A DNA stretch of 64,000 nt from Sulfurimonas sp. hsl 1-7 (GCF_030577135.1 NZ_JAUIRR010000002.1:326157-390156); one strand, 5' to 3'; counted from the first letter of the stretch, positions 170 to 49,268 are shown. Numbers and translations: made by a program. Notes: generated from the letters alone by a model not told the origin.

Positions 170-179
170 GAGGTTTTAT

Positions 180-2443: not shown

Positions 2444-2449
2444 TATAAT
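2444..2449 (+). promoter_or_regulatory. Putative -10 element of the PAS/CZB-receptor pair
   Basis: TATAAT at 2444-2449, followed by a T-rich stretch, lies 25 bp before the GTG start at 2475. No good -35 hexamer is seen, as is common in Campylobacterota. The start itself is set by AAGGAAGG upstream of the GTG. Confidence 0.5.
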
Positions 2450-2474
2450 TTTTTTTAATAAAAAGGAAGGTGAC

Positions 2475-4386: not shown

Positions 4387-4404
4387 TTGAATAACTAGAA
4401 TAAA

Positions 4405-4420
4405 TGCAACAAACTTGCCA
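4405..4420 (-). promoter_or_regulatory. Sigma-54-like promoter sequence pointing antisense to the CZB receptor gene
   Basis: Read on the minus strand, 4420-4405 is TGGCAAGTTTGTTGCA. This fits the sigma-54 consensus TGGCAC-N5-TTGCA with one mismatch and exact GG-to-GC spacing. Transcription would run left into the 3' end of the receptor gene, where no minus-strand gene is recognised. It may be an antisense RNA promoter or a chance match. Confidence 0.3.
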
Positions 4421-4463
4421 CACTACTATGCGATAATTTTCTGCTGAGAAGGGAGGTAGATTT

Positions 4464-7596: not shown

Positions 7597-7610
7597 TGTG
7601 AAGAGATAAG

Positions 7611-8387: not shown

Positions 8388-8390
8388 CAT

Positions 8391-11313: not shown

Positions 11314-11341
11314 TAAAAAAAAGAATCTAAAGCAGCAGCAT

Positions 11342-28326: not shown

Positions 28327-28581
28327 ATGAAATTTTTCCTTCTTTTATCGTTGTTAACAAGCTTATTATTCGCAGTAGTAGATATCAATACTGCAACTGT
28401 AGAAGAACTGGCTTCACTTAAAGATATAGGTACTAAAAAAGCCAAAAAAATTATCAAATACAGAGAAGAACACGGTTGTTTTAAAGATCTCAAAGAGTTT
28501 AAAAAGGTAAAAGGGATCAAGAAAAAAACAATAAAGAAAAACAAAGGGAATATAGTTGTTAGTGAATGTAAAAAACAGTAA
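28327..28581 (+). CDS. ComEA-like helix-hairpin-helix protein with signal peptide
   Basis: An 84-residue protein with a signal peptide (MKFFLLLSLLTSLLFA) and one helix-hairpin-helix pair: VDINTATVEEL then DIGTKKAKKIIKYREE and VKGIKKKTIKK. ComEA-type proteins bind double-stranded DNA in the periplasm during natural transformation. GGAGG 6 nt before the ATG fixes the start. The 3' end overlaps the CotH lipoprotein gene by 26 nt, so it sits in the pel operon. DNA binding next to an exopolysaccharide that binds extracellular DNA is suggestive, but not proven to be related. Confidence 0.88.
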   Translation: MKFFLLLSLLTSLLFAVVDINTATVEELASLKDIGTKKAKKIIKYREEHGCFKDLKEFKKVKGIKKKTIKKNKGNIVVSECKKQ

Positions 28582-30244: not shown

Positions 30245-31718
30245 TGAAGCGACTCAACAGAACGTTACCGCTAATGTAAAAGCTAAAAAGAGAAAAACAC
30301 CTAATTTAGTATCTACATTTTTTAGAAATGCACTGCGTTCAAATTTAGACCTTACATCTTTAGCGGATACAAAAGCGGGTATCTTGATCTCGCTTAACGG
30401 CTTTATCTTAACGGTCAGTGTAACGGCTTCAAGTTTTACCGTTCATTCAAAACTTATGACTTATGCGTTTATCTCAATCATCTTAACCTCTCTTGGCTCG
30501 ATCATCTTGGCTGTATTGTCTGTCAAACCAAGAACAAAAAACAAACTTGTAAATAAAGAGTTTCTAGAGGACTATCATAGTCTTTTATATTATCAAGATA
30601 TGGCGGATATGTCCCCTACAGAGTACCACTCTTCAATGAACAAAGCTTTAAAAAGTGCCAAAAGATCAAAAACCGAGATGATAAGCCATCTCCATATTTT
30701 AGGTGCTGAGATCAAAAAGAAATATTTTTGGCTGAAATACGCTTATACATTTTTTTCTACAGGGCTTATACTCACTGCGTCACTCATTGTTTACGCTCTA
30801 ATGAATGAGAGTAAAAGAGTTGCAAATACACAAAAAGAGAAAGAGTATTTTGTAGGAACATTTTATAATATTTTTGAGCCTTCCGGTGCAACAACCGTCG
30901 AGAAGAACAAAGTGCTTATTGTAGAAGATGAAAGCAGCAGCAGACCACTTAAACTGATCACATTCGATGAGAATAATCATGTAGTGGAGATAGGTGACCT
31001 GCATATCCCTAAAAAAATCAAAAAAAGTTTCAAAAAAGAGATAGAAGATCTTGAAGCGATCACGTCAGACGGCAATATTGTTTATGCAGCTACATCCCAT
31101 TCGCTTAACCGTTCAAATGAGCAAAAAAAAGCACGTGAAAAACTTCTTATGTTTCATTATGAGGATGAATCTATTATCGATATGGAAGTTTACAATCATC
31201 TAAAAGATGAGCTTATTGCTCTTGAACCAAATCTTTTTGGAGATAAACTACTTGGATACAATGCAATCAACATCGAGGGGTTAACAGTTGATACAACGGA
31301 CAACTCCCTCGTACTTGGTTTTAGAGCCCCTTTACATAATGCCAAAGCAATTATTTTAGCTATCAAAAATCCTAAAGAGCTTTTTACAAAGAATCCTCCA
31401 AAACCTCTTTTTAAAGAGCCTCTTTATGTTGATCTTAACGGACTTGGAATACGCGGTATCAAATATGACGAGCAAAAAAAAGGTTACTGGATAATAGCGG
31501 GGGATGCGGGTCAAAGAACCGCTAAGTTCCAACTCTACTTCCTTGATCAAACTACACAAAAAGCATCTTTAGTAAAAAAAGATTTGGATCTTGGGCATTC
31601 TGAAGGAATAACAATTGTAGAAAACGGTGCAGAGAGATTTATATTTTGTGTTGAAGACAATGGAGAACAGCCTAATAAAGCTGCCAATTATATTAAAATC
31701 GGGATGGATTCATTATGA
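30234..31718 (+). CDS. Three-helix membrane protein (Pycsar-TM/DUF5706-like) fused to DUF3616-like domain
   Basis: A 494-residue protein. Residues 30-195 hold three membrane helices with the motif LADTKAGILISLNGF, which resembles the DUF5706 membrane module of Pycsar effectors. With the N-terminus in the cytoplasm, the rest would face the periplasm. Residues 215-490 resemble DUF3616, a propeller-like domain (LEAITSDGNIVYAATSHS, NIEGLTVDTTDNSLVLGFR, GIRGIKYD, HSEGITI). Start at 30234 with GGTGG 6 nt upstream, overlapping the CotH gene by 11 nt and the porin gene by 4. No cyclase lies nearby, so a defence role is not indicated. Family names are from motif memory. Confidence 0.6.
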   Translation: MYNNEATQQNVTANVKAKKRKTPNLVSTFFRNALRSNLDLTSLADTKAGILISLNGFILTVSVTASSFTVHSKLMTYAFISIILTSLGSIILAVLSVKPRTKNKLVNKEFLEDYHSLLYYQDMADMSPTEYHSSMNKALKSAKRSKTEMISHLHILGAEIKKKYFWLKYAYTFFSTGLILTASLIVYALMNESKRVANTQKEKEYFVGTFYNIFEPSGATTVEKNKVLIVEDESSSRPLKLITFDENNHVVEIGDLHIPKKIKKSFKKEIEDLEAITSDGNIVYAATSHSLNRSNEQKKAREKLLMFHYEDESIIDMEVYNHLKDELIALEPNLFGDKLLGYNAINIEGLTVDTTDNSLVLGFRAPLHNAKAIILAIKNPKELFTKNPPKPLFKEPLYVDLNGLGIRGIKYDEQKKGYWIIAGDAGQRTAKFQLYFLDQTTQKASLVKKDLDLGHSEGITIVENGAERFIFCVEDNGEQPNKAANYIKIGMDSL

Positions 31719-33037: not shown

Positions 33038-33553
33038 ATGTTAAGAAATGTATTATTAGCAGCATTTGCAATGTTGTTTATAGGTTGTACAAGTAATGTG
33101 ATCGTAACGACACCAAAAAAGCTACCGGCTGTATATGAAGATGTAAATGAGACACATCAACAAAAAAACAGTGTTACTATCGCTTTATTTCGTTTAGAAA
33201 ACTATACGGATACTCCAAGAGCGGGTATGAGAGCTTCTAATATTTTAGAGGGGATTTTGAAGGCTAAAGGGTATAAAGTTGTTTCATATGTAAATGATAA
33301 AACTTACTCTTTGAAAAAAGCTGCTAAAAAAGCAAAAGATGATAATGCAAAATACTTTATCTACGGTGGTGTAAGTGAATGGAGATACAAAACAGGTATC
33401 GACGGTGAACCGGCTGTTAGTATCCAAGTAAGTTTATATAAAACAAAAAACAAAAAACTTGTTTGGAGTGCAACTGGTTCAGACAGTGACTGGGGTAACG
33501 GTTCTATAGGGACAACTGCCCAAGACTTACTAATGGAGATGGTTGAAAGATAA
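33038..33553 (+). CDS. pelC: Pel export outer-membrane lipoprotein PelC
   Basis: A 171-residue lipoprotein with lipobox IGCTS (about residue 18). PelC forms a dodecameric ring on the periplasmic side of the outer membrane and funnels positively charged Pel to PelB. The body has the PelC pattern VTIALFRLENYTDTPRAGMRASNILEGIL, and near the end WSATGSDSDWGN. AAAGGAATTTAGG precedes the ATG. The stop overlaps pelD. Length agrees with PelC of Pseudomonas (about 170). Confidence 0.88.
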   Translation: MLRNVLLAAFAMLFIGCTSNVIVTTPKKLPAVYEDVNETHQQKNSVTIALFRLENYTDTPRAGMRASNILEGILKAKGYKVVSYVNDKTYSLKKAAKKAKDDNAKYFIYGGVSEWRYKTGIDGEPAVSIQVSLYKTKNKKLVWSATGSDSDWGNGSIGTTAQDLLMEMVER

Positions 33554-34914
33554 TGGCAAAACATACACAAAGAGTACAGGAAAAATCAACAAAAGATCTT
33601 GTAAGAGAGTATATACACAAATACGCTTATATTGAGACATTAATACTTGTTACTCTTTATGTAGCTATTGGTTATTTAATCAACTCTGAAGATCCATGTT
33701 TACTAAGTTACAAAGTACCGTATCTTGTAATTTTACTGGCGGTCATCACCCTTTTTCACGGTTTTGAAAACGGTGTATTTGCAGTCAGTATTATCTCATT
33801 GACTATCTGGATATTTTATCCGTCATTCCAATATGTGGATTTCTTGATTGCATTACTTATGACTTTAATATTTAGTCAATTTCACTACTATTGGACCTCT
33901 CGTATCAAAGAGGCTGAAGTCGATTCAAGCTATAAATCCGAGAAACTCTCCGAGCTTTCCCGTGCTTTTTATACCCTGAAAATTTCGCACGATCAGTTAG
34001 AGAAAAACTATGTTATTAAGCCTATGAGTATTCGTAATTCAATTAACCATATTGTCAACACGAATGAGATGATATTACTTGATGAAACAGTCGAAAATAA
34101 AGCATATGAATATAATAACAACTTCCTAAAACTAATTGAGAAATCGTTTAGTATGCAAAGTGGTTTGATTCTCTATCTAAAAGATAATGCGATCGATAAA
34201 AAGTTCAACAAAGATACGGTAGAGCTGATAACTATTAATATAGAAGAGCATTTGGAAGTTGATAAGTTACTGAAAAACTATCTTGTAGATAAAGCAATCG
34301 CCAGAAAATCACCCGTATATGTAAGTGATGAAACCGGTGAACCGACTATATTTAGCGAAGAGATTGAAAATAAATATATTGGTGCTATACCGGCAGTGAT
34401 CAACGGAAAAGTTGTGTCAGTCCTTGTAATAGAGAAAATGCCTTTCATGTTTTTTAATAGAGAGAATCTTACATCGATCACTATTTTACATGAATACTTC
34501 TCTATTGAAAACAGAAAAGCTTCTCTTTCAAAATCACTTGACGGTTTTGAACTTTTAGAAGATAAAGATTTTAAATTTGAGATGGCAAGACTCCGAGATC
34601 TGAACAATAATTTCAAAGTGAATTCTGTCGTCTTAGTACTACGAATCGACAATGAACTGCAAACCGCAAGAGTGTACCAGAAAGTTGAACGTATGCTCCG
34701 TTCTCTTGATATGATTACATTAGTACAGAATGAAGGTTATTATTACATCACGTTACTGCTTCCTCTACACGATAAAGCAGCAGCACAAGGTTTCCTAAAA
34801 AGACTTCAATTTATGTTAGAAGACGAGAGGGATAAAAAGTTTGAATATATGAGTTTTGATATGAGTAAACTTTCCCTTCTCTCAAAATATTATCGGGAAG
34901 ATTATGGAAAATAA
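33553..34914 (+). CDS. pelD: c-di-GMP receptor and Pel synthase subunit PelD
   Basis: A 453-residue inner-membrane protein. Four membrane helices (about 28-115) are followed by a coiled coil, a GAF domain (about 160-325) and a degenerate GGDEF domain (about 330-450). The allosteric RxxD motif is present as RLRD at 346-349, with further Arg at 380 and 383 near the position of the second c-di-GMP-binding Arg in Pseudomonas PelD. Binding of c-di-GMP would switch on Pel polymerisation by PelF. Overlaps pelC (1 nt) and pelE (11 nt). Confidence 0.92.
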   Translation: MAKHTQRVQEKSTKDLVREYIHKYAYIETLILVTLYVAIGYLINSEDPCLLSYKVPYLVILLAVITLFHGFENGVFAVSIISLTIWIFYPSFQYVDFLIALLMTLIFSQFHYYWTSRIKEAEVDSSYKSEKLSELSRAFYTLKISHDQLEKNYVIKPMSIRNSINHIVNTNEMILLDETVENKAYEYNNNFLKLIEKSFSMQSGLILYLKDNAIDKKFNKDTVELITINIEEHLEVDKLLKNYLVDKAIARKSPVYVSDETGEPTIFSEEIENKYIGAIPAVINGKVVSVLVIEKMPFMFFNRENLTSITILHEYFSIENRKASLSKSLDGFELLEDKDFKFEMARLRDLNNNFKVNSVVLVLRIDNELQTARVYQKVERMLRSLDMITLVQNEGYYYITLLLPLHDKAAAQGFLKRLQFMLEDERDKKFEYMSFDMSKLSLLSKYYREDYGK

Positions 34915-36016
34915 ACTATTTGCCCAATTTGATCTATACTTTTTTTTGATATTAGCTATACACACGCTAATAAGCATTGTAATAGCTTTTTTTATTTCAA
35001 AATATGTAAAAAAAAGATTTATTCAAAGCTCTTATCAGGTAAATAAACAAGATCTCCATAGACTTCAGGCTATTATTGATGAGAACCAGTTTTACAAAAT
35101 GTTGTTTAGATTTTCATTGCATAAAAACAACTTCAGATCGAGTTTTCTTTATTTTTTTATATTTAACTTTTCTATGCCTGTTCTTGGCTATGTAACTTCT
35201 ATACTTTTAGCAAAACTAATGGTAGATATGGAATATACTGAAAAAGTTTCTAATACAAATATTTTAAATCTAGATGAGTTTGGTATATCGTTTTTAGAAG
35301 TTGAAAGAGTTTTTGGTGAAGGTTCACTCAATGATCTCATCCATAGTCAATACGCACCAAAATCAAAAAAATTAAGAGCATTAAACGTTCTCTCGACAAA
35401 TATCTCTCCGGCAAACCTAAGAATTATCAAACAAACACTCTCAAGTACGGATGATGAGATCAGGATGTTTGGATATGCCATTATCGATAAAGCTGAAAAA
35501 CGTCTGGCAAAAAATATCAATAAAGAGCTTGAAAGGCTCAAAGCTGCAGATAATGCACATAATCTTCATGATGCGGCCGAAGCATCAAAAGAGTTGGCAT
35601 TTTTATATTGGGAACTCCTTTATACAGAACTTTCACATGAAAGTCTTAATGAAGAGTTTTTAGATCAGGTTGAGACGTATGCATTAATCTCAAGACGCCA
35701 TTACCTTATATTGCTTGATGAGATAGTGGAAGAGAACTCTCAAGAGCATCTACAAATTATCAACACTTTATCAAAATTACACCTCTTACTTGGTCGTGTA
35801 TATATGAAAAATGAAGCCTTTGAACAAGCTCTTACAGAATTTACAGTTGCCCAAGAGCTTTTAGATAATGATGCAAACTTTGTATTACCGTATATGGCAG
35901 AGATCTATTTCTTAATGGGTAAATACAATATAGTTGCTTCGATTTTATCAAAATTACAAAGTCTGAGTATCAACTCGACAATTTACCCAATTTTAGAACA
36001 ATGGAAGAGAGCGTAA
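34904..36016 (+). CDS. pelE: Pel synthase complex membrane-TPR protein PelE
   Basis: A 370-residue protein. Two membrane helices (about 12-32 and 75-100) are followed by a helical, TPR-like cytoplasmic region (about 200-365; LHLLLGRVYMKNEAFEQALTEF is split over two helices). In other organisms PelE links PelD and PelF in the inner membrane. Overlaps pelD by 11 nt and precedes pelF by 1 nt. The TPR part is better preserved than the rest. Confidence 0.85.
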   Translation: MENKLFAQFDLYFFLILAIHTLISIVIAFFISKYVKKRFIQSSYQVNKQDLHRLQAIIDENQFYKMLFRFSLHKNNFRSSFLYFFIFNFSMPVLGYVTSILLAKLMVDMEYTEKVSNTNILNLDEFGISFLEVERVFGEGSLNDLIHSQYAPKSKKLRALNVLSTNISPANLRIIKQTLSSTDDEIRMFGYAIIDKAEKRLAKNINKELERLKAADNAHNLHDAAEASKELAFLYWELLYTELSHESLNEEFLDQVETYALISRRHYLILLDEIVEENSQEHLQIINTLSKLHLLLGRVYMKNEAFEQALTEFTVAQELLDNDANFVLPYMAEIYFLMGKYNIVASILSKLQSLSINSTIYPILEQWKRA

Positions 36017-36017: not shown

Positions 36018-37736
36018 ATGCCACATAATATTAAATTTCCAAAAAGTGATAATGTTGATATCATGCTTTTTTCCGAGGGAACTTATCCATACATAAAAGG
36101 TGGCGTTTCTAGTTGGCTATTGCAACTTATGAAAGGTTTACCGCAATTTACTTTCGGTGTTTGTTTTATAGGTGCTCAAGATACCATAGACGGCAAAAAG
36201 ATGAAAATCAGCTATGAATTCCCACCGAATCTAAAACATCTTGAGGTACACTACCTTTTTGACAACGAAGATACACCTCCTCCAAAAAAAATTGAAGGGA
36301 ATGAAACAGGTTTTGAAGCTATTCGTGAACTTTATTCAAGTTTTAAAAGTGATAAGGTTCAAATGCCCAAAATGCTGCAAGACATCTCTTTTTATACAAA
36401 AGATGTAACATTTGAAGACTTTTTATTTTCAAAAAAAGCTTGGCAGTTTATAGATGAAACATATAGTAAAAACTGCCCGGATGTCCCGTTTGTAGACTAT
36501 TTTTGGACATTAAGAAATATCCATAAACCTATATGGATACTTGCTGATATTGTCGAAAAATTGCCTAAAGCGAAAATATTTCATTCACCTTCTACAGGGT
36601 ATGCCGGATTTTTAGGAGCACTCTCCTCTTACCAAACAAACAGACCGTTTTTATTAACGGAACACGGGATCTATACAAGAGAAAGAAAAATCGACATGTT
36701 CTCGGCTGATTGGATTGAGTTTAAAAAGCCTAGTTTATTACAACAACCCGAAGAGTATAACTACATCAAACGTATGTGGGTAAACTTTTTCGATAAGATT
36801 GGGATCTTTTGTTATGACCGTTCAAACTATACCCTCTCACTTTTTTCAGGTGCGCAAAAAATTCAAATAAGCTACGGTGCAAATGAAAATAAAACTCGGG
36901 TTATCCCTAACGGTGTTGACGTTGAAGGTCTCGGAGAAACAATGAAAGAGCGTCTTGAGACTCCAAGACCTATCATCACGCTTATTGGGAGAGTCGTACC
37001 TATTAAAGATATTAAAACCTTTATTCGTGCTATTAAAATAGCATCTATGACTATTCCAAATATCGAAGGGTGGATCGTCGGTCCCGTTGAAGAGGATCAG
37101 GAGTATTTTGATGAGTGTCAACAGATGGCGATATCTCTTGGTTTAAAACACAGAAAACAAAAATTTCAGAACAATAAAAGTGAAATGTCTCTTGAAGATA
37201 TTGTTGCACACAGAGATAAAATAAAGTTCTTTGGACATAGTAACATTAAAGATATTTTACCAAAGTCGGCAATCCAGACACTCTCTTCTATCAGTGAGGG
37301 GATGCCTTTAGTTATCTTAGAGGGTTTTGCTGCGGGCGTACCTTGTGTTGCAACAGATGTGGGAAGTTGCCGCGACCTAATAGAAGGTGGTATAGATGAA
37401 GAGGATAAAGCGATAGGTTTTGCAGGTGCAATTGCCGGTATCGCAAATCCGGATGAACTTGCATCTCAATATATCAAGTTTTTAAACTTTGAAAACGGCT
37501 TATGGAAAAGAGCTCACGAGGCTGGTTTAAAACGTGTAAGAAAATACTACTCTCAAGCATCTTTTTTACAACAATATGAAGATTTATACAACGAAGCAAA
37601 AGATCTTACCTGGGATGAATTGGCAGAGATAGTTTTCCCTTACTATATGCCAAAACCTCCACCATATCCTAGAGTGATGTTAAAAAGATTTACAATTACA
37701 AAATTCTTAACAAATCTACCACAGAGGGGTCTATAA
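36018..37736 (+). CDS. pelF: Pel glycosyltransferase PelF (GT4 family)
   Basis: A 572-residue cytosolic glycosyltransferase that polymerises Pel from UDP-sugars. The N-terminal MLFSEGTYPYIKGGVSSW motif is diagnostic of PelF. The GT4 nucleotide-sugar site is visible at about 420-450 as SISEGMPLVILEGFAAG (E-x7-E) and VPCVATDVGSC. Length agrees with PelF relatives (about 500-510) plus insertions. It shares one base with pelG. Confidence 0.95.
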   Translation: MPHNIKFPKSDNVDIMLFSEGTYPYIKGGVSSWLLQLMKGLPQFTFGVCFIGAQDTIDGKKMKISYEFPPNLKHLEVHYLFDNEDTPPPKKIEGNETGFEAIRELYSSFKSDKVQMPKMLQDISFYTKDVTFEDFLFSKKAWQFIDETYSKNCPDVPFVDYFWTLRNIHKPIWILADIVEKLPKAKIFHSPSTGYAGFLGALSSYQTNRPFLLTEHGIYTRERKIDMFSADWIEFKKPSLLQQPEEYNYIKRMWVNFFDKIGIFCYDRSNYTLSLFSGAQKIQISYGANENKTRVIPNGVDVEGLGETMKERLETPRPIITLIGRVVPIKDIKTFIRAIKIASMTIPNIEGWIVGPVEEDQEYFDECQQMAISLGLKHRKQKFQNNKSEMSLEDIVAHRDKIKFFGHSNIKDILPKSAIQTLSSISEGMPLVILEGFAAGVPCVATDVGSCRDLIEGGIDEEDKAIGFAGAIAGIANPDELASQYIKFLNFENGLWKRAHEAGLKRVRKYYSQASFLQQYEDLYNEAKDLTWDELAEIVFPYYMPKPPPYPRVMLKRFTITKFLTNLPQRGL

Positions 37737-39109
37737 TGGCGGGCATTGGATTTGAACTTAGAAAAATACTGCGTGAAGACAGACTTCTTTCACTCGGTAA
37801 AGTATATGGATATTCGGCAATACTCAGCTCAGGGCCTTGGGTTATATCGATTGTAGCGATTATTCTGGTAGGTTTTATCAATCTTTCACACTTTGGTGAA
37901 GTAAAAGATGCCTTTAGATTTCAAGTCGTTATCACCTATGCTATTGCTTTGGCATCAAGTTTAATAATTACGGGGATTTTACAGCTCCCTTTTACAAGGT
38001 ATATTGCCGATCTGATCTTTAGAAATAAAGATGATGAGATCTTACCATCTTACTTCGGTGCTATCTTTTTAGCGTGGGGGCTTGGTCTTATCTTTATAGT
38101 TCCGCTTTATATCTGGGTATTTAGCGATATGCCCCCTTCATTTATTGTCGGTACCGTACTTACTTTCTTAGTACTTTGCGGGGTCTGGATTTCAAGTATA
38201 TTGGCTGCGAGTTTAAAATACTATTCACAAGTTGTTTGGGCATACCTTCTTTCGTATACTTTTATCGTTGCAGTATCATATGCATACGGAAGCTCTATCG
38301 AGATGCTTGTATATATCTTTTTTACCGGGAATGCGATCCTTTTTACGATACTTATGAGCTTAATTATTAAGAGCTATCCATCTACAATCTTTATGAAACT
38401 AAACTTCTTTTTAGATCATAACTTTTACTGGACACTTGGAATTGCAGGTCTAAGTTACAACCTTGGTGCATGGATCGATAAATTTATCTTTTGGTACCAT
38501 CCTGCAACGGGACATGCTATTATCGGAAAACTTCACGCCTCTGTAGTTTACGATATGCCGATCTTCTTGGCATATTTATCTATCTTACCGGGTATGGCTA
38601 TCTTTTTCTTTAGACTCGAAGCCGATTTTGCAGAAAAGTATGATCTCTACTATGATGCGGTTAGAAGCGGCGGGACTTTAGGTCTTATCAAAAAATATAA
38701 AAACGATATGACCTCAATCGTAAGACATGCGATCCATGAGATTATTATGGTGCAGGGTATTGTTGATATTATCTTGTTTTTAACTGCAGATAAACTCTTT
38801 GCGGCACTAAATATCTCTACACTTTATCTTGGATTATTTTATATCTTAACAATTGGAGCTATGTTACAGTTGGCATTTATGTCTATTTTGGCTATATTGT
38901 ATTATCTTGATCGTAAAAAAGCTGCTATGTGGCTCTCTATCTCGTTTTTTGTTCTAAACGGGCTTTTGACATACTTATCGATCAACATGGGCACGACTAT
39001 GTTTGGATACGGATATACGATATCTCTTTTAATTGTCTTTACTCTCGGTGTATTAGTTATTCGAGAAGAGATGAATAGGTTGAATTATGAAACATTTATG
39101 TTACAGTAA
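37736..39109 (+). CDS. pelG: Pel inner-membrane transporter PelG
   Basis: A 457-residue protein with about 12 membrane helices and the PelG N-terminus AGIGFELRKILREDRL. PelG belongs to the MOP/Wzx-like superfamily and moves Pel through the inner membrane with PelD and PelE. The motif GLSYNLGAWIDKFIFWY is family-typical. It shares a base with pelF and overlaps the first pelA by 23 nt. Confidence 0.94.
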   Translation: MAGIGFELRKILREDRLLSLGKVYGYSAILSSGPWVISIVAIILVGFINLSHFGEVKDAFRFQVVITYAIALASSLIITGILQLPFTRYIADLIFRNKDDEILPSYFGAIFLAWGLGLIFIVPLYIWVFSDMPPSFIVGTVLTFLVLCGVWISSILAASLKYYSQVVWAYLLSYTFIVAVSYAYGSSIEMLVYIFFTGNAILFTILMSLIIKSYPSTIFMKLNFFLDHNFYWTLGIAGLSYNLGAWIDKFIFWYHPATGHAIIGKLHASVVYDMPIFLAYLSILPGMAIFFFRLEADFAEKYDLYYDAVRSGGTLGLIKKYKNDMTSIVRHAIHEIIMVQGIVDIILFLTADKLFAALNISTLYLGLFYILTIGAMLQLAFMSILAILYYLDRKKAAMWLSISFFVLNGLLTYLSINMGTTMFGYGYTISLLIVFTLGVLVIREEMNRLNYETFMLQ

Positions 39110-41648
39110 AATTATCCTTACTTTTTTCCTTTTTATAGCTACTGCCTATGGTTCGGTAAATGACAAAAGTGCCATAGTGTATCTTGGAAAAGATATCTCC
39201 TATCCTATGGTCGGTATCCATGACTATATCATCGTAGATCCTGTAAAAACTAATGTTTATACACATGGTTTTGAGGTATATAACAATAAAATCTATGCAA
39301 AAGTAAACATTAGTAATTCCAGTACCATTCAAGAGCTACTAGATCATGTTACACGTCTCTCAAAGAGTGGATATAAAAACTTCTTTTTTGACGTTCAAAA
39401 GCCGATTTATCAAAAAAATCTAACGCTGTTTTTAAACAAATTCAGATCGACAAAAACAGTTCAAGATGCACAGGTAATTATCCATTTAGATGATCAAGAG
39501 CTTCTTAGCTCTATCTCTAAGTATATTGATACTTTACTTGTATATAACGCTTCTAAAGACCCAAAACTTGAAAATAACATCAAGTTCTATAAAAACCTGA
39601 GTGATGACATTATTGATGTTGAGATTCTCTCATCGAATAATATAGAGCAACTCAAACATTTAGGGTTTATCCCCTATATTACAACACCAAGTATGGATAA
39701 CTACGGAAAATCATCGAAAAATGCGATTAAAAGAGAGATCTTGACGCTTGTAAATGAGAGTATTGAAGATCGTAAAGAGTTATCTGCAAGCCGTTACGGA
39801 GCTTTACCTTTAGAGTATAACGGGTATATTCAGAAGCTCTATAATATCCAAAATTCACTTCCGGATCCTGAGCATATGGGTCAATATGCAGGTGTAGTGA
39901 TTTGGTTAAGCATAGGATATAAAGACTCTGTAAAATTGGTAACTTGGATAAAAGAGATCCAGTCACAAAATATCCCTGTTGTATTTGCATACGATTTTGG
40001 TTTTAATTCATCAAATACATTCTTACAACAGCTAGGTATTAGTGCAATGGATGCAAAGGCGGATGCTACAAAAACTATAGTCCACAAAGATAAAATGATG
40101 GACTATGAGATAAAAGTACCGCTGAACCAAGATAGATTTTACATCAAACCGCCGGCAGGTTCTAAAGCACTTTTAACATATAAGGACAATTACGGACTCA
40201 CCTCAACACCTGCAGCGATTACGCCATGGGGCGGGTATGCACTCGGTGATTCATTTTTTATAGAGCTCGACGGAGAAAACCTATGGAGCATCGATCCATT
40301 TATGTTTTTTAAAGAGGCTCTGCGTTTAAAAGATTTACCCGTACCCGATACGACTACAGAAAACGGTAGCAGACTCTTTTTTACACATATGGACGGTGAC
40401 GGTATTTTAAACGGTGTTGAGTTTAATCCTGAGTTTATATCCGGTGATATTATCTATAGTGAGATACTCAAAAAATATAAATTCCCACACTCCGTATCTC
40501 TTATCGGTGCAGAGATTATGCCAGATGGTCTCTATCCAAAAGAATCAAAAAGGCTGTTACAACTAAGTAAAAAAATCTATGCCTTAGATAATGTCGAACC
40601 TGCGACACACACCTTTACTCACCCGTTTTTCTGGGGAAAAATAAAAGATGATCAACTCGATGAAAAATATAGACTTCAGGCACCTGGATATACTTTTTCA
40701 ACAGCGTATGAGACATTAGGAATGCTTGATTTTATTCAAGATAAACTGATTGGTAAAAATTCAGATAAAAAAGCAAATCTAGTATTTTGGAGTGGAGACT
40801 GTAATCCAAGAACCGATGCACTAGAGTATCTGGCTAAACACAATATTTTAAACATTAACGGCGGAGACACCACTATTAACAATGCAAATCCATGGTTAAC
40901 CAGAGTAGCCCCGCTTGGTCTTGAGAGAGATGGGTACTATCAAATCTATACAGGTGCAGAAAATGAAAATGTCTTTACAAAAGACTGGATGGGACCGTAC
41001 TGGGGATTTAAAAAAGTTGTACAAACGTTTGAGTTAACAAACTCTCCAAAAAGGTTAAAACCTATCGACGTCTATTACCACTTTTATTCAGCTTCAAAAA
41101 AAGCATCATTGAATGCTGTACGTTATGTTTTTGACTGGGTTATGCAACAAAAAGATATCATGCCTATCTACACTTCACAGTATATTCCAAAAGCGATGGA
41201 CTTCTGGACAGCTTCTATCGCGTATGAAGAGGGGGTTTGGCTTTATGACGGGATGAGGGACCTTAAAACACTTAGAGTAGAGAAAAAAGATGCCACGGTA
41301 GCACTTAATGACTCACAGACTATCTTAGGTGTAAAACATTTTGAGAATCACACCTATATCGCTTTAGATCCTCATATTAAACATAGTTTTAAACTCAATG
41401 GTGCAGCTGTAGATAACACTGCGTATCTTATTAGTTCGAACGGGGAAGTTACAGAGTACATAAATAATAAAAACTCGAAACGCTACAAATTCAATGCGAA
41501 TGTACCTCTTGAGATCAAACTGCATATTCCTAATAACTGTGTAGTAAATGCTATTCCAGAAAGCTCGGTTGAAAAGCTAGAGAACAAAGAGACAATTCTC
41601 AAATATAAATCTAACAAAAAGGCAACTATAGATGTACGATGTCAATAA
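39087..41648 (+). CDS. pelA: PelA paralogue 1: deacetylase with degenerate glycosidase domain
   Basis: An 853-residue secreted protein with a signal peptide (about 22 residues). The N-terminal GH114-like domain (about 25-225) is shortened compared with copy 2 and reads LLVYNAS at 150-156 where copy 2 has VLFES. The catalytic Glu (E218 in Pseudomonas PelA) is therefore Asn154 here; Asp102 in FFFD is kept. The deacetylase part retains the metal and catalytic residues THMDGDG (His434, Asp436, Asp438) and HTFTH (His508, His512). It should therefore deacetylate Pel but not cut it. ATG start with AGG upstream; overlaps pelG and the TPR gene. Confidence 0.88.
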   Translation: MKHLCYSKIILTFFLFIATAYGSVNDKSAIVYLGKDISYPMVGIHDYIIVDPVKTNVYTHGFEVYNNKIYAKVNISNSSTIQELLDHVTRLSKSGYKNFFFDVQKPIYQKNLTLFLNKFRSTKTVQDAQVIIHLDDQELLSSISKYIDTLLVYNASKDPKLENNIKFYKNLSDDIIDVEILSSNNIEQLKHLGFIPYITTPSMDNYGKSSKNAIKREILTLVNESIEDRKELSASRYGALPLEYNGYIQKLYNIQNSLPDPEHMGQYAGVVIWLSIGYKDSVKLVTWIKEIQSQNIPVVFAYDFGFNSSNTFLQQLGISAMDAKADATKTIVHKDKMMDYEIKVPLNQDRFYIKPPAGSKALLTYKDNYGLTSTPAAITPWGGYALGDSFFIELDGENLWSIDPFMFFKEALRLKDLPVPDTTTENGSRLFFTHMDGDGILNGVEFNPEFISGDIIYSEILKKYKFPHSVSLIGAEIMPDGLYPKESKRLLQLSKKIYALDNVEPATHTFTHPFFWGKIKDDQLDEKYRLQAPGYTFSTAYETLGMLDFIQDKLIGKNSDKKANLVFWSGDCNPRTDALEYLAKHNILNINGGDTTINNANPWLTRVAPLGLERDGYYQIYTGAENENVFTKDWMGPYWGFKKVVQTFELTNSPKRLKPIDVYYHFYSASKKASLNAVRYVFDWVMQQKDIMPIYTSQYIPKAMDFWTASIAYEEGVWLYDGMRDLKTLRVEKKDATVALNDSQTILGVKHFENHTYIALDPHIKHSFKLNGAAVDNTAYLISSNGEVTEYINNKNSKRYKFNANVPLEIKLHIPNNCVVNAIPESSVEKLENKETILKYKSNKKATIDVRCQ

Positions 41649-42687
41649 CGAAAAGACTGTTTATGTTGTAACATATAAAGAACTTTTGTTCACTGTTGTA
41701 ATCTTTATAATTATCCTTTTTGCACTCTATCCAAAAGGGATCTTAAAAGATCAAATATCTGCAGATCAGTCTAATTATGATCTCAGTATGATCTACTTAA
41801 AAGACCTTTTAGAACACAGTCCTAACGATGATTCACTAAAGTTGATACTGTTGGAAAAATATGTACAAGCAGGAGAGATTGAGCACTCTCTTGAACTCTC
41901 TAAAAGTTTACTTCAAAGTAAGAACAAATATATACGTAATAAAGCGATAGTGTTAACTTACCAAACAAAAAAAATAAAGTATTTTGCTACCAACGATGAA
42001 AAACAACAAAAAGTTCTTCACAATGATCTCAAAAAACTTTTTGCAACTATATATGCAGAGAAACTTTACGATGACAATACGAAAAAATGGCATAACGAAG
42101 CAGTATTTTCCCATAATCCTCAAGCTGCCTATTATTTCTTGCAAATAATGTTAAAAGAGGATCCTACAAACGTAAATCTCTTAAGAGAGGGGTATTATCT
42201 TTCTCTAAACCTTTACAAAAAGTCAGATTCAATGGAGTTCATCAACTCTTTAGAGAAGTATGATACGAGCAACTCGACAAAATGGGCTATGGATAAATAT
42301 GATATATTTATCCGTTATAAAGACTATAAAAGTGCCGAAAATATTTTACAAAGATATGCTAATGATTCGATCGAAATTCAAGAAAAACTGGCAAATTTCT
42401 ATCTTATGATAAAAAAATACGAAGCAGCATCAGATACATATCTAAAACTCTATTATGTTTCTAAAGATGAAGATGTACGAGAGGGTTATCTTGTTAAAGC
42501 TGTCAAAGCATTACAAGCCGGCAACCTTTTAAAACAAGCGGCCAACTTGGTACATCAATATGAATCAAAATATATAGGCAATATAAAGATGAGAAAATTT
42601 TTCTTGCGAATCTACCTTGCGGCAGGTGAGCTGGAATATGCATCGCAATTGTCTAAAAAAATCCTAAAATACGAGAATAAGTTATGA
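41632..42687 (+). CDS. Inner-membrane-anchored TPR protein, probable N-terminal half of a split PelB
   Basis: A 351-residue protein with one membrane helix near the N-terminus (about 16-36; LLFTVVIFIIILFALYP) and a periplasmic helical-repeat region of TPR type (about 45-350). Pseudomonas PelB is one chain of about 1190 residues with an N-terminal membrane anchor, TPRs and a C-terminal barrel. Here the anchor plus TPRs and the TPRs plus barrel are two genes (351 and 947 residues) overlapping by 4 nt. It would tie the inner-membrane complex to the outer-membrane exporter. Assignment is by position and architecture. Confidence 0.7.
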   Translation: MYDVNNEKTVYVVTYKELLFTVVIFIIILFALYPKGILKDQISADQSNYDLSMIYLKDLLEHSPNDDSLKLILLEKYVQAGEIEHSLELSKSLLQSKNKYIRNKAIVLTYQTKKIKYFATNDEKQQKVLHNDLKKLFATIYAEKLYDDNTKKWHNEAVFSHNPQAAYYFLQIMLKEDPTNVNLLREGYYLSLNLYKKSDSMEFINSLEKYDTSNSTKWAMDKYDIFIRYKDYKSAENILQRYANDSIEIQEKLANFYLMIKKYEAASDTYLKLYYVSKDEDVREGYLVKAVKALQAGNLLKQAANLVHQYESKYIGNIKMRKFFLRIYLAAGELEYASQLSKKILKYENKL

Positions 42688-45527
42688 TAAGAATAGTTCT
42701 AGTATTACTTTTTATTTTTATATCCGTAGTTGCACAAGCGAACCTTCCGGTTACGCAACAAACACCGCTTGCAAAGAAAAAGCAATTACAAACACCGGCT
42801 TCGGAGGAGGAAGAACTTCGTTTAATGGTGCAAGTATTTTTATACAAAGGTGATGTGGAGAGTGCATTTCAAGTTGCACAAATCGGCTACAACCAACATC
42901 CAAATTCCTACTATTGGAATGAGAAAATGGCTACTATTTCACAATGGACAGGTCGTTCTGCACGCTCTATGAAGCACCTCAAAAAGATGTATCAGCTCAA
43001 ATACGATCCTAAGATTGAGAAACAACTCATCGAGTATGGAAAAGCAACCTTTCAATATGAAAGTATAGAACCGCTAGTAAGAAACAGGGTAAGAAAAAAT
43101 CCTAGTGAAGAGAACATCGATCTACTGATCACCATCTATAAACAAACGGGTTTTCCGGAAAAAGTTATAACAATCTTGGATAAAGAGTATAAAAAAACAA
43201 AAAAACCTTTATTGCTTACAAAAGCACTTGAACTCTCTTTAGAGTTAGGTGATCTTGATCTAGCAAAAAAATATGTAGATATTCTCAGCAAAGAGAGACC
43301 TTATTCAAAACAAAACAGTGCCCTTATAGCAAAATACTACTATATTTTAAGAGATATTAACACTGCTTATAACGCTCTTACATATGCAGACAATCCTGAT
43401 ATTATTGAAGATAATAACGATACTTCGGAACTACAGTATTTTGAACTAAAAAGTGATCTGGGATGGTATCTGCAAAAAAATCTTCCTGCCGCACAAGCAT
43501 CAAAAATGTTGATTGATGCAGATAAGGGAAGATTGTCCGATTATGAAAGGGTTGCTGTTGTTTATCAGGATATTGATCCAGAAATTGCGGCACAAGCAGT
43601 AAAAGAGGGGTATATGAAATATCAACTTTCATATATGTTTTTCGGTTATGCTAATGATGCCATCAACAAAAACAAGTTTGATGAGCTCAACAAACTCTTA
43701 AAGACAATCGATGAAGAGAACTCACCCCTTACACAAGAGGCTATGTACTGGATCATAAAATCAAAAGTTTATAACCACTATGAAAAGTACGATCTCGAAG
43801 AGATGGCTTTACAAAAAGCACTTTTGTTATCCCCATACGATATAGAGATCAAAACAGCTCTTTTATGGCACTTTATGGATCTGCATGATGTTAAAAATAC
43901 AAAACTGATCCTTCTGGAGATTGAAGAGAAAAACAATATTTCTTCATCACTTTACTTCACTTTAGCATCTGCATATTTCTATATCAACAATATCGACAGA
44001 GCCTCTTACTATACGAGTCTCCTTGATTTTGAAAAGAATATCATTACACAAAGTGTTGACTATAAATTTTTACAAGCATATATCTATCAAATGCAAAATA
44101 GAGATGAAGCTTTTAAATTAAGAATGAGAGAGGTCTTGAACCTTTTAAAAGAACAAAGAGAAAAAACTCCTAGCCTTAAAAAAGACAATGATCATCTTAC
44201 AAACTATCTCAGTGCGGCAATGTATGTTATGCGTGCAGATAAGTTTGAGAAAAACTTCAAAAAAGCAAAACCATATCTCAAACCGAAAAATTATAACGAG
44301 TTAGCGTACTCTTGGGCATTGCAAAAAGATGCGCTTGAAAAAAGTCATGAGATTTATACACAAACACCGACTCCGGAACTATGGATGCAGTTCTCAAATG
44401 CTATTGTTGTTCAGCACCATACAAATATAGAGAACCTGCTTGATCAATACCTCTATGAGCTCTCTGCCTCAGATGCATCTTTCCAAGCAAAAGAGGATGG
44501 GCAGATTGCATTGGCACAAGCAATAAACTATAACTTCTTTGATCATAACCACTATAATAAAAACAACTATATACAACAGATAGAGCTCAGCAAACTTAGA
44601 AGTGACACACTTGATATCAGACTTTCCAGATATATCAGAGATCCACTTGAACAGCACTACGTTACACTGAAAAACAGCTCTTATATAGGGGACAGCTGGT
44701 ATGTTTTAACCGGTTTTGGATATTACGACAACAAATCATCTGATCCGGATATTTTAGTAGATGTTCCAAAAAGTACTTATGATGCTACACTCGGCATTAA
44801 AAAGGTAACTGAGAGAGCTTCTATTGAACTTGATCTTCTCTATAACCATAATATGAGGAACTATCTCTCAGTTCTTTTAAATACAACTTATCAATTCAGT
44901 ACTGACTTTAGAGGTGCATTAGAGATAGCAAAAAACAAAAGGGCTGAGGAGAGTACACAGCTTTATCTCGGCGGTAAAAAAGATCTTATTGCTCCGTCAA
45001 TAACATACCAGATCCTCGATTCTACTTCTGTTGAACTGAGATATGAATTGAGTGATTTTTACTCCCAAGATAATGTACATCTTGGAAACGGAAGATATTT
45101 TAGTGCAAATGTTTCACAACAATTGAGAAACGGTTATCCGGATCTTCGCTTTGGAATGTTTTACGATAATGGAATCTATAGTGAAAGTTCAGGTTCCAAA
45201 GGTGTTATCGATCAACTCCAAGTAGATCAATATCAAGTTTTACCGAGCCAGTTTTATAACATAGGAATTAATTTCTCATATGGTTATGTGAATAAAAACC
45301 TCTACACTAGAGTTTGGAGACCTTACATTGAATTTTCCCCTTATTATAGCTCTGATATCGGTGATTATACATTTGGTGTCAATGGCGGTATCGGCGGAAA
45401 AGTATTTGAACAAGATCATATGAGTATCGGTGCTTCATATACCGACTCTGTCAACGGTATAGGTGGAAAAGTATTTCAGTTCTATATAGATTATCAATTT
45501 ATGTACACACTCTCAAAGGAGTTCTAG
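42684..45527 (+). CDS. pelB: Pel outer-membrane exporter PelB (TPR plus beta-barrel)
   Basis: A 947-residue protein with a cleavable signal peptide (about 20 residues, ending VVAQA), TPR-like helical repeats (about 45-600) and a C-terminal barrel (about 650-947) with alternating strands, ending in aromatic YTLSKEF with a terminal Phe. The barrel is the channel through which Pel leaves, and the TPRs bind PelA in Pseudomonas. The membrane anchor normally found at the N-terminus is instead encoded by the upstream gene. It ends 1 nt before the second pelA. Confidence 0.88.
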   Translation: MIRIVLVLLFIFISVVAQANLPVTQQTPLAKKKQLQTPASEEEELRLMVQVFLYKGDVESAFQVAQIGYNQHPNSYYWNEKMATISQWTGRSARSMKHLKKMYQLKYDPKIEKQLIEYGKATFQYESIEPLVRNRVRKNPSEENIDLLITIYKQTGFPEKVITILDKEYKKTKKPLLLTKALELSLELGDLDLAKKYVDILSKERPYSKQNSALIAKYYYILRDINTAYNALTYADNPDIIEDNNDTSELQYFELKSDLGWYLQKNLPAAQASKMLIDADKGRLSDYERVAVVYQDIDPEIAAQAVKEGYMKYQLSYMFFGYANDAINKNKFDELNKLLKTIDEENSPLTQEAMYWIIKSKVYNHYEKYDLEEMALQKALLLSPYDIEIKTALLWHFMDLHDVKNTKLILLEIEEKNNISSSLYFTLASAYFYINNIDRASYYTSLLDFEKNIITQSVDYKFLQAYIYQMQNRDEAFKLRMREVLNLLKEQREKTPSLKKDNDHLTNYLSAAMYVMRADKFEKNFKKAKPYLKPKNYNELAYSWALQKDALEKSHEIYTQTPTPELWMQFSNAIVVQHHTNIENLLDQYLYELSASDASFQAKEDGQIALAQAINYNFFDHNHYNKNNYIQQIELSKLRSDTLDIRLSRYIRDPLEQHYVTLKNSSYIGDSWYVLTGFGYYDNKSSDPDILVDVPKSTYDATLGIKKVTERASIELDLLYNHNMRNYLSVLLNTTYQFSTDFRGALEIAKNKRAEESTQLYLGGKKDLIAPSITYQILDSTSVELRYELSDFYSQDNVHLGNGRYFSANVSQQLRNGYPDLRFGMFYDNGIYSESSGSKGVIDQLQVDQYQVLPSQFYNIGINFSYGYVNKNLYTRVWRPYIEFSPYYSSDIGDYTFGVNGGIGGKVFEQDHMSIGASYTDSVNGIGGKVFQFYIDYQFMYTLSKEF

Positions 45528-45528
45528 G

Positions 45529-48252
45529 TTGAAAAAACACCTGCTTCTTGTGTGGATTTTTAGTGCACTTTTATTTGGCTCTTTGCAAGATAAAAGTGCG
45601 GTAGTTTATTATGGTGATGAGCTCTCTTATCCGATGGTCGGTATCCATGACTATATTATTGTACAACCCAACCATACAAACACCGCTACACATGGATTTT
45701 CTCTTTATAAAAAAAATATTTATGCATATATAAGTATCGGAGAAACTGACACTAACAGTAGTGAGTTTAGTGATATCAATAGTTCTTGGATCGTTGCAAA
45801 AAATGAAGCTTGGAGGAGTGATGTTCTCGATATCAACAATAAAGAGTATCAAGAGTTTATCTTTACACATCAAATAGAACCTCTTTTAAAGCAAGGATTT
45901 AAAAACTTCTTCTTTGATACTTTAGACTCATACTATTTTTACTCAAAAACACCCGAAGAGATTCAAAAGAGTCAACAATCTTTAGCTAGTTTTATTCTTG
46001 AGTTTCATAAAAGATATCCCGACTCAAAACTGATAATCAATCGTGGTTTTGGAATTATAGACAATGTTCATAACGCGGTTAATGCGGTTTTATTTGAATC
46101 CTATTATCGAGGCTTAAAAGGGAAAAATTTAGCCTATCAAACAGTAGATGAAGCAGACCGTATATGGCTTGATCATAATCTTGAAAAGGTTAAAAAATAT
46201 AATCTCGACATTATTGCCGTTGATTATCTCTTTGATATGAAACAAGCTGATGAGCTTGTAGAAAAACTTCAAGCAAAAGGTTTCATCCCTTATGTAGCAA
46301 ATAAAGCGCTGGATATCTACGGAAAGAGTTCTAAAAACAGTGTTAAAAGAGAGATTCTGACTCTTATAGATGAAAGTAGACTCGATCGAATGCTTCAAGG
46401 TGCACATTTTGAGGGTGGACTTATCTTTGAATATCTCGGATATATACAAAAACTTTACGATATCAACAAAGGATTACCAAATCCCGATAAGTTAGATCAT
46501 TATGCAGGGATAGTTATTTGGCTAGAAAAATACTATAACGATCCAAATAAACTCTTAAAGTGGGTTACAGAGGTAAAGAAACGCAATATTCCTATTGTTT
46601 TTGTCAACACCTTTGGTATTGATGTAAAAGAGGATGAACTTGCATCCCTTGGCATTACAATCCAACAGACGAACCTACCAAAACAATCTATCCTTTATAA
46701 AGATGAAATGGTTGGTTTTGAGATTGAACCTCCTATGTCTAGAAACCCTATGCTCATTCATGTCAAAGATGCAAAAGAGTTACTTACCTATCAATATGCA
46801 GACAAAAAAACATCCACCCCTGCAGCGATCACTTCATGGGGCGGATATCTTCAAAATGGAGCTTTTATTACATCTATTAATGGTGAAGATATATGGGTCA
46901 CTAACCCTTTTAAATTTTTTGCGCAGGCGTTAAGACTCCAAAAACTGCCAGTGCCAGATCCAACTACCGAAAATGGGAAACGTCTCCTTTTCACGCACAT
47001 TGACGGTGACGGTATTATGAATAAAGTAGAGGGGGATTTTGGAGAGTTTTCAGGTGATGTTATTCTTAATAAAATTCTAAAAAAATATAAAATTCCCCAT
47101 TCGGTTTCTGTTATTGGAGCCGAGATAGATCCAAACGGCCTTTATCCAAAGCTCTCAGAAAAACTAATAGATATAACAAAAAAAATGTTTGCACTTGAGA
47201 ATGTAGAAGCGGCAAGCCATACATTTACACACCCGTTTTTTTGGGAGAAAATAGTTGATGACAATCTAAGTGAGGAGTATAGACTCAAAGTACCAGAGTA
47301 TCAGTTTTCACTTGAAAGAGAACTCAAAACCACCCTTGATAATATCAATGAAAAATACTCACCGAAAAACAAATCTAAAAAAGCAGAGACTATCTTTTGG
47401 AGTGGAGACTGTGCCCCAAGAAAAAATGCTTTAGAGTATATCTACAAAGATCATATTTTGGCAATCAACGGTGGTGATACCACTATTGTAAAAACCCATC
47501 CCTGGCTTACACGTGTCTCCCCTTTTGGATTAAAACGTTCAGAGTACTACCAAGTCTATACAGGTGCACAAAATGAAAATGTATATACAAACAACTGGCT
47601 TGGACCGTTTTGGGGATTTAAACGCGTAACACAAACTTTTGAACTGACAAACTCACCCAGACGTCTAAAACCTATAGATATCTATTATCACCTATACTCA
47701 GGTTCTAAACGTGCATCGTTAGAGGCGTTGAAATATGTATTTAACTGGGCTCTCAAACAAGATGTCATGCCAATCTTTACCTCTGAATATATCCCCAAAG
47801 TTATGGATATGTATGAGGTCTCTATGGCAAAAGATGAAAATAGTTGGCTCATTACAGGAATGAATGACCTAAAAACCATCAGATTTGAGGATTTTGATAC
47901 AAATGTAGACCTTAATAACTCAAAAGGTGTCGTAGGTCTTAGCCAATTTGAAAACCATACCTATTTGAGTCTCGATCAAAGAGGAAAACATCTTATAGAG
48001 CTCTCTCCTAAAAACAACAATAAAATCTATATGGTTTCAAGTAATGGAAAACTTACTGATTATAAAGAGAGTAATACAACCAAGAGTTATAGTTTTAGCT
48101 CTTATGTAGATCTTGAATTGAGTATGTATGTTGATAAAGAGTGTAGTATATCTTCCACTCCAAAGGCACGCAAGCTCTTAGAGGAAGAGAATATTGTTAC
48201 ACTCAAATATAAAGATACAAAAGCGGTAACAATAACACTAGAGTGTGAATAA
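45529..48252 (+). CDS. pelA: PelA paralogue 2: bifunctional glycoside hydrolase/deacetylase
   Basis: A 907-residue secreted protein with a signal peptide. The GH114 domain (about 20-285) keeps both acidic residues, Asp130 in FFFDTLD and Glu190 in VLFESYY. A deacetylase region follows, with THIDGDG (His490, Asp492, Asp494) and SHTFTHPFFW (His564, His568). Both activities known for PelA are thus expected: endo-alpha-1,4-GalNAc hydrolysis and partial de-N-acetylation of Pel. TTG start with AAAGGAG 7 nt upstream. The stop lies 2 nt from the end of galE on the other strand. It is clearly homologous to copy 1 along most of its length. Confidence 0.92.
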   Translation: MKKHLLLVWIFSALLFGSLQDKSAVVYYGDELSYPMVGIHDYIIVQPNHTNTATHGFSLYKKNIYAYISIGETDTNSSEFSDINSSWIVAKNEAWRSDVLDINNKEYQEFIFTHQIEPLLKQGFKNFFFDTLDSYYFYSKTPEEIQKSQQSLASFILEFHKRYPDSKLIINRGFGIIDNVHNAVNAVLFESYYRGLKGKNLAYQTVDEADRIWLDHNLEKVKKYNLDIIAVDYLFDMKQADELVEKLQAKGFIPYVANKALDIYGKSSKNSVKREILTLIDESRLDRMLQGAHFEGGLIFEYLGYIQKLYDINKGLPNPDKLDHYAGIVIWLEKYYNDPNKLLKWVTEVKKRNIPIVFVNTFGIDVKEDELASLGITIQQTNLPKQSILYKDEMVGFEIEPPMSRNPMLIHVKDAKELLTYQYADKKTSTPAAITSWGGYLQNGAFITSINGEDIWVTNPFKFFAQALRLQKLPVPDPTTENGKRLLFTHIDGDGIMNKVEGDFGEFSGDVILNKILKKYKIPHSVSVIGAEIDPNGLYPKLSEKLIDITKKMFALENVEAASHTFTHPFFWEKIVDDNLSEEYRLKVPEYQFSLERELKTTLDNINEKYSPKNKSKKAETIFWSGDCAPRKNALEYIYKDHILAINGGDTTIVKTHPWLTRVSPFGLKRSEYYQVYTGAQNENVYTNNWLGPFWGFKRVTQTFELTNSPRRLKPIDIYYHLYSGSKRASLEALKYVFNWALKQDVMPIFTSEYIPKVMDMYEVSMAKDENSWLITGMNDLKTIRFEDFDTNVDLNNSKGVVGLSQFENHTYLSLDQRGKHLIELSPKNNNKIYMVSSNGKLTDYKESNTTKSYSFSSYVDLELSMYVDKECSISSTPKARKLLEEENIVTLKYKDTKAVTITLECE

Positions 48253-48254: not shown

Positions 48255-49268
48255 CTAGTTGTTTTTATATCCGTTAGGATTCTTTGACTGCCATCGCCAA
48301 CTATCTTCACACATCTCATCAATTGAGCGCTTTGCTTCCCAGCCTAAAACAGATTTAGCATAACTAGGATCGGCAAAACATTTTGCTATATCACCGTTGC
48401 GTCTTGCTGTGATCTTGTATGGGATCTTTTTTTCTGATACTTTTTCAAATGCCTTTACAATATCTAAAACAGAATACCCTTTCCCCGTTCCTAGATTAAC
48501 CGTCAGTACATTCTCTAAACTATCAATCTTTTCAATCGCTTTTACGTGTCCCTCCGCTAAATCGACAACATGTATATAATCTCTTACACCTGTACCGTCA
48601 TGCGTGTCGTAATCATCTCCAAATACACTTAATTGCTCCAATTTACCAACAGCAGTTTGTGATATATAAGGCATAAGGTTATTTGGTATTCCGTTTGGAT
48701 CTTCACCTATTAAACCTGATTTATGTGCACCGATAGGATTAAAATAGCGAAGAAGTATAACTTTCCATTCATGATCTGAAGTAAACAGATCTTTAAGTAT
48801 ATCCTCTATAAAAAGTTTTGTTCTTCCATAAGGGTTTGTAGTTGAGAGTGGAAAATCTTCTGTAATTGGTGTCGTATGAGGATCTCCGTAGACAGTTGCC
48901 GAAGAGCTAAAAACAATCTTTTTACAGTTGTTTTGCGCCATCACTTCACAAAGTTTTATAGTCCCTATTACATTATTATCATAGTATGCTAACGGTTTCT
49001 CAATAGATTCTCCGACAGCTTTAAGTCCTGCAAAATGGATTACGGAGTCTATATCATAAAGATCAAATATTTTTTGCAGGTCAGTTTCATTTCTGATGTC
49101 ACCCTCTATAAACTTCACATCTTTACCTATAATTTGTGATACTCTTTTTAAACTCTCTTTTGAAGAGTTACAAAGATTATCAAATACTACAAAATCAAGT
49201 CCTTCATTATCTAACTCTATACATGTATGTGAACCTATATATCCCGCTCCGCCGGTGACTAATATCAT
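48255..49268 (-). CDS. galE: UDP-hexose 4-epimerase GalE with Cys gatekeeper (UDP-GlcNAc/UDP-GalNAc capable)
   Basis: A 337-residue short-chain-dehydrogenase-type epimerase with NAD-binding [20 protein letters not shown] and catalytic Tyr147-xxx-Lys151 (YGRTK). Next to Arg290-Asp293 the position equal to Tyr299 of E. coli GalE is Cys297 (GDIAKCFAD). A small residue there is known to admit N-acetylated sugars, as in human GALE. UDP-GalNAc is a Pel precursor, so this gene likely plays the role of PelX. It is convergent with pelA copy 2 with a 2-nt gap. AAGAAGG precedes the ATG; a -10 TATAAT lies at 49306-49301. Confidence 0.92.

Follow-up and report, generated by a model that had tools for sequence, protein, structure and literature searches.

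The window analysed here, a 64,000-nucleotide stretch from the marine sulfur bacterium Sulfurimonas sp. hsl 1-7 (GCF_030577135.1 NZ_JAUIRR010000002.1:326157-390156), carries on its + strand a Sulfurimonas-type pel operon in the order pelC-D-E-F-G-A1-(split pelB)-A2, in which the gene for PelA, normally an enzyme that deacetylates as well as cuts a biofilm polysaccharide, is present twice (Table 1). The two PelA paralogues had been read from the sequence in an original prediction, and both open reading frames (ORFs) are confirmed at the positions and lengths tabulated. From pelC onward, neighbouring genes overlap or are separated by 1-2 bases, and they are therefore probably co-transcribed. The reading of the two parts of pelB as a split gene is supported by L098, in which a single 1204-amino-acid (aa) ORF matches both of them. 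The start codon of pelA2 is TTG, with AAGGAG just 5′ of it.

As a reference for both copies we used the PelA of Pseudomonas thermotolerans (PtPelA; PDB 9CGY), with hydrolase residues D149 and E207 and CE21 deacetylase residues D517, D519, H589, H593 and H750 (PMC12022489). PelA2 has everything that was checked for in a bifunctional PelA, namely the GH166 barrel with its catalytic Asp and Glu, the CE21 metal triad, base and acid (0 of 41 near-invariant CE21 sites lost) and a location in a pel operon. Its Asp130 and Glu190, already singled out in the original prediction, align with D149 and E207, and the only GH114/GH166 Pfam match in the whole genome lies in this protein. The label GH114 used in that prediction stands as the Pfam name only, the PelA hydrolase now being CAZy family GH166 (PMC12022489).

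PelA1 gives no Pfam match whatsoever, GH114 included. Its hydrolase span comprises 161 residues versus 224 in PelA2, about 60 residues having gone, and it is devoid of three active-site loops: a loop and helix of ~40 residues after the strand YAxVSI, a loop of ~10 residues after FFFD, and a loop of ~20 residues after the position of the catalytic Glu. While the catalytic Asp is retained as Asp102, the Glu position is occupied by Tyr153 in a gapless strand alignment (NAVLFES / DTLLVYN), scored as E207Y in a 66-row comparison. The shortened domain and the missing Glu had thus been correctly foreseen, but Asn154, the replacement proposed earlier, probably lies one residue too far along; the position is non-acidic in either case. 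Overall, PelA1 has lost 16 of the 19 near-invariant hydrolase sites and none of the 41 in CE21. The deacetylase motifs (His-x-Asp-Gly-Asp and HTFTH, together with the Glu and the catalytic His) are retained in both copies, as had been claimed, so that PelA1 has the complete metal triad, catalytic base and acid of CE21; what it lacks of a bifunctional GH166 and CE21 PelA is the catalytic Asp-Glu pair with the active-site loops.

Predicted structures give a similar picture. In AlphaFold2 (AF2) models, whose confidence is good only in parts of the hydrolase region and from which no claim on the CE domain is drawn, the hydrolase domain of PelA2 aligns to that of P. aeruginosa PelA (5tcb) with a Z score of 26.4 (229 of 253 residues, 2.1 Å), and the corresponding region of PelA1 with a Z score of 17.7 (182 residues, 2.6 Å). 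The PelA1 model shows eight alternating strands joined by short connections which, considered with the alignment to 5tcb, point to a barrel that is hollowed rather than to a missing domain.

Table 1. Positions of the pel genes and of PelA residues in the window, counted from its first nucleotide.
Feature	Position	Strand	Basis or remark
pelC-like outer-membrane lipoprotein gene, 171 aa	33038..33553	+	first operon gene conserved in relatives; LpoB/DUF4823 Pfam matches weak
pelD, cyclic di-GMP receptor of the Pel synthase	33553..34914	+	PF16963 PelD_GGDEF 6.6e-14
pelE, TPR inner-membrane protein	34904..36016	+	position, weak TPR matches, conserved synteny
pelF glycosyltransferase	36018..37736	+	NF038011 PelF 1e-174
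pelG	37736..39109	+	PF16933 5e-127; 3′ end overlaps pelA1 start
pelA1, hydrolase-dead PelA, predicted dedicated CE21 deacetylase, 853 aa	39087..41648	+	46% identity to PelA2 over the whole length; site losses
Predicted hollowed GH166 barrel of PelA1, ~residues 28-219	39168..39743	+	eight strands retained, three active-site loops gone (AF2 model)
Asp102 codon of PelA1	39390..39392	+	equivalent to PtPelA D149 (catalytic Asp), retained
Tyr153-Asn154 codons of PelA1	39543..39548	+	stand where catalytic Glu-Ser would be; gapless local alignment
CE21 catalytic residues of PelA1: H434, D436, D438, H508, H512, E627, H665	40386..41081	+	
Split pelB, N-terminal half: transmembrane helix and TPRs, 351 aa	41632..42687	+	TPR matches
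pelB, C-terminal half: TPRs and beta barrel, 947 aa	42684..45527	+	PF24604 PelB barrel 4e-38; TPR_15 1.9e-29
pelA2, full PelA, hydrolase and CE21 sites intact, 907 aa	45529..48252	+	Pfam GH114 E=7e-14; 9cgy phmmer E 5.6e-137
Asp130 codon, catalytic Asp of PelA2 hydrolase	45916..45918	+	aligned to PtPelA D149
Glu190 codon, catalytic Glu of PelA2 hydrolase	46096..46098	+	aligned to PtPelA E207
CE21 catalytic residues of PelA2: H490, D492, D494, H564, H568, E683, H721	46996..47691	+	

Hydrolase and deacetylase sites among relatives

Searches covering 228 genomes of the family and 399 of the order recovered PelA in 53 and 43 genomes, respectively; a wider search of named genomes, its reach limited to close relatives, yielded four loci only. 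In single-copy operons, a full PelA lies between pelG and the split pelB. About 18 genomes including that of the window, some of them incomplete, instead have a short, hydrolase-dead PelA1 after pelG and a full PelA2 after pelB. At least 15 orthologous PelA1 proteins share this domain-specific loss, which is therefore not a product of chance; each of the 14 that were checked lacks 11-17 of the 19 near-invariant hydrolase sites, compared with 0-1 of the 41 in CE21.

Selection on the two domains differs accordingly. Across 13 genomes, the mean pairwise identity of the hydrolase domain is 0.325 in PelA1 versus 0.602 in PelA2, that of CE21 0.701 versus 0.714, and that of the mixed alpha/beta domain, which together with the CE domain is expected to mediate docking of PelA on the PelB TPRs and is conserved in both copies, 0.549 versus 0.497. 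For PelA1 of the window compared to that of G031, the dN/dS ratio (omega) is ~0.05 for CE21 and 0.14-0.21 for what remains of the hydrolase, an argument that rests on this pair only, distant pairs being saturated. Judged from the identities, the hydrolase domain of PelA1 evolves nearly freely, with its CE21 domain as constrained as that of PelA2.

In a second lineage (G487 and G445), it is the copy after pelB, in slot 2, from which these three loops are missing. The non-hydrolase part gives a tree, built like the others by a quick method, that unites the 15 dead copies of slot 1 in one clade (Shimodaira-Hasegawa-like approximate likelihood ratio test, SH-aLRT, 99) beside the full copies of slot 2 (joint clade, SH-aLRT 81), and sets the dead slot-2 copies of G445 and G487 apart, in a clade whose sister group consists of the full copies from that same lineage. 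Constraining all dead copies together costs 135 log-likelihood units (approximately unbiased, AU, test, p 1.5e-93). In addition, the G445/G487 remnants resemble the live hydrolases of single-copy relatives rather than the PelA1 remnants, and the PelF+PelG tree puts the operons of G445 and G487 beside that of single-copy G472 (L145), apart from the clade of the window. A single shared origin of all hydrolase-dead copies is rejected by the AU test, the remnant identities and the PelFG tree, and gene conversion between copies, as a cause of the pattern in G487 and G445, by the resemblance of their remnants to the live hydrolases of single-copy relatives. The phylogeny, which the original prediction had proposed as a means of dating the duplication, thus shows two independent duplications, and the hydrolase was lost independently in each lineage.

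The reverse loss was detected in G023, a member of the clade of the window. Its PelA2 has all 19 near-invariant hydrolase sites intact, and exactly three of the 41 CE21 sites are changed: the metal ligands, as D519N, H589N and H593D (codons AAT, AAT and GAT). A random draw of three of the 41 sites would give the metal triad with a chance of 9e-5. The PelA1 of the same genome retains 41 of 41 CE21 sites and is hydrolase-dead; therefore, as far as the residues tell, both activities should sit in different proteins, with the division complete in G023.

Several other loci deserve mention. A tandem pair of full-length PelA genes with intact active sites lies away from other pel genes in G047 (L053:10918-16311, +) and is a third, separate pelA duplication. 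In G478, a full PelA belonging to the slot-2 clade stands without other pel genes nearby (L135:7187-9889, -) and is either an orphan after operon loss or a moved gene. The two-copy operon of G502 (L124) has many broken frames (pelD, pelE, pelG, pelA1, pelB, pelA2) and is decaying or poorly assembled. Finally, of the 44 genomes in the family of G163 (L034), only this one and one other gave a match, which suggests horizontal transfer.

A proposed division of labour and its alternatives

In P. aeruginosa, Pel export needs deacetylation, and the hydrolase yields secreted low-mass Pel; docking to PelB raises deacetylation, and the isolated hydrolase domain is not bound by PelB (PMC12022489, PMC9894940). 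We consider it likely that PelA1 is a dedicated deacetylase whose barrel is kept as a scaffold and that PelA2 does the cutting and, in the window species, probably also deacetylates. The pelA gene would have been duplicated inside the pel operon, and PelA1, which occupies the ancestral slot, would have lost three loops and the catalytic Glu of the hydrolase, its hollow barrel staying as a scaffold, to become the dedicated CE21 deacetylase of the exported N-acetylgalactosamine polymer. The copy after pelB (PelA2) would have kept the hydrolase, and its deacetylase job can be lost, as in G023. This proposal builds on what can be read from the sequences, that is, the intact and lost residues, the selection pattern, two independent duplications and one reciprocal loss. 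The separation of jobs put forward in the original prediction, with copy 1 a dedicated deacetylase and copy 2 bifunctional, is accordingly favoured by the comparative evidence, in particular by the identity contrast, the two losses and G023.

With regard to the polymer, PelA1 docked on PelB might deacetylate without cutting, giving long cell-associated Pel, and PelA2 might cut a fraction of it, giving secreted Pel, with the balance of the two setting the ratio of cell-associated to secreted Pel. A more far-reaching version, which we offer tentatively, is that of a processing switch made up of PelA1 and PelA2, which would compete or pair at the pore of one PelB exporter and thereby set the proportion of anchored and secreted Pel, with lineages drifting towards a full specialisation completed in G023.

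Some observations weigh against such a division. In the window species, all CE21 sites of PelA2 are retained and its CE21 domain is under purifying selection, so that this protein probably has both functions and the split is incomplete; a need for deacetylase dosage would fit as well. The reciprocal loss is known from one metagenome-assembled genome, G023 (completeness 94%), in which a contig end interrupts PelA1, the two pieces being joined through an exact overlap of 127 bases. In the second lineage, the G445 bin is mixed, and the dead copy of G487 is frameshifted. Moreover, the AF2 models were built from six sequences and have a mean predicted local distance difference test score (pLDDT) of 58 and 60.

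Of the readings that differ from a division of labour, one takes PelA1 as extra deacetylase capacity and nothing else, the hydrolase loss being tolerated since PelA2 covers it. In its favour, CE21 is constrained in PelA2 of all two-copy genomes but one (omega of 0.05 for the window pair), and the hydrolase was lost in either slot. However, removal of these three loops happened on two occasions, and about 18 genomes have held on to the copy, suggesting that a non-cutting copy is favoured, and the second copy of G023 gave up deacetylation, which selection for dosage would oppose; we therefore regard dosage as the sole explanation as rather improbable. It is also unlikely, in our estimate, that the hollow barrel took on a new task beyond that of a scaffold, such as polymer guiding, PelA1-PelA2 pairing or regulation. 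Although the omega of the remnant indicates some purifying selection, and its conservation is concentrated in the N-terminal strands and at the junction with the next domain, most of the conserved residues also occur in PelA2 and are consistent with packing against other domains. Furthermore, the barrel core is variable (33% identity), and the removed loops are, as inferred from the hydrolase fold, those shaping the substrate groove.

The remaining two readings concern the state of PelA1 itself. Its being still a glycosidase, acting through other residues, could draw on the catalytic Asp (equivalent to Asp102), which is retained in 11 of 16 PelA1 proteins, but it is replaced in the other 5, the three loops are gone and E207 has become Y, D, P, K, F or N. 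The alignment to Pseudomonas PelA, called for by the original prediction, revealed the loss of the Glu in PelA1 only, and among the 16 aligned remnants neither a conserved Glu near the active site nor any other conserved second acid was detected, which rejects another Glu of PelA1 as a catalytic substitute and makes residual glycosidase activity very improbable. That PelA1 is a decaying pseudogene seems scarcely credible: one domain does diverge fast, and the G502 operon is frameshifted, yet the ORF of the window is intact and PelA1 is kept across Sulfurimonas and in Sulfurospirillum sp. Kmv13. Pseudogene decay is rejected by the CE21 omega of 0.05 and the retention of all 41 CE21 sites.

If PelA1 is indeed a deacetylase divided off from a cutting PelA2, then in G023 cutting would be left to PelA2 alone and deacetylation to PelA1 alone, and evolution appears to be separating deacetylation and cutting into two proteins. 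How PelA coordinates deacetylation with hydrolysis on a single polymer, and when hydrolysis is turned on, was left as an open question by the authors of the structure (PMC12022489). The hydrolase-dead PelA (from two events) and the deacetylase-dead PelA are natural separation-of-function proteins in their own operons, and as such are ready-made reagents for asking which activity export needs.

Known Pel systems and neighbouring genes

Both copies in the window belong to the same four-domain family and have the same operon role as Pseudomonas PelA (P. aeruginosa and P. thermotolerans; PDB 9CGY, 5TCB; PMC12022489), with all CE21 residues kept in both and the GH166 Asp and Glu kept in PelA2. However, Pseudomonas has one bifunctional PelA, whereas the window has two copies, one of them without a hydrolase site. 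Both active sites were reported as conserved among the homologues in that structural study (PMC12022489), a rule to which PelA1 is an exception.

Deacetylation and hydrolysis likewise reside in separate proteins in the Gram-positive pel clusters of Bacillus cereus and Streptococcus intermedius, which encode a deacetylase-only PelADA, required for Pel, and a separate hydrolase (PMC13254593, PMC12345266). PelADA has no hydrolase domain, and its CE domain shares only ~20% identity with that of P. aeruginosa PelA (PMC13254593, PMC12345266). Unlike this arrangement, the separation in the window stems from duplication of a PelA of the bifunctional, Gram-negative type, one copy retaining a remnant of the barrel next to a second, complete PelA. 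In the parts consulted of a survey of pel operons (Nitrosospira, Leptospirillum; PMC7112194), changes of pelA position, divergent pelA and pelB fission are described, as seen in the window, and so are duplications of the whole operon; a hydrolase-dead and a full pelA paired in one operon were not found in those parts. Nor did we find in the open-licence papers searched a prior description of paired hydrolase-dead and full PelA, of pelA paralogues or of Pel in Sulfurimonas or Campylobacterota.

Convergent to pelA2 lies a galE-like epimerase gene (48255-49268, -), which may be the source of UDP-N-acetylgalactosamine for PelF; a gene of this type adjoins the pel operon in many relatives, whether or not a second pelA is present. 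Upstream of the operon, the window encodes a CotH kinase family protein with an apparent lipoprotein signal (28556-30244, +; Pfam 4.6e-50) and, just before the pel region, a membrane protein in which a PycTM domain (Pfam 5e-17) is joined to DUF3616 (30150-31715, +). Farther away, about a dozen signalling genes form a run at 162-15560 (+), judged by eye to comprise methyl-accepting proteins, response regulators, GGDEF/EAL-like and histidine-kinase-like proteins.

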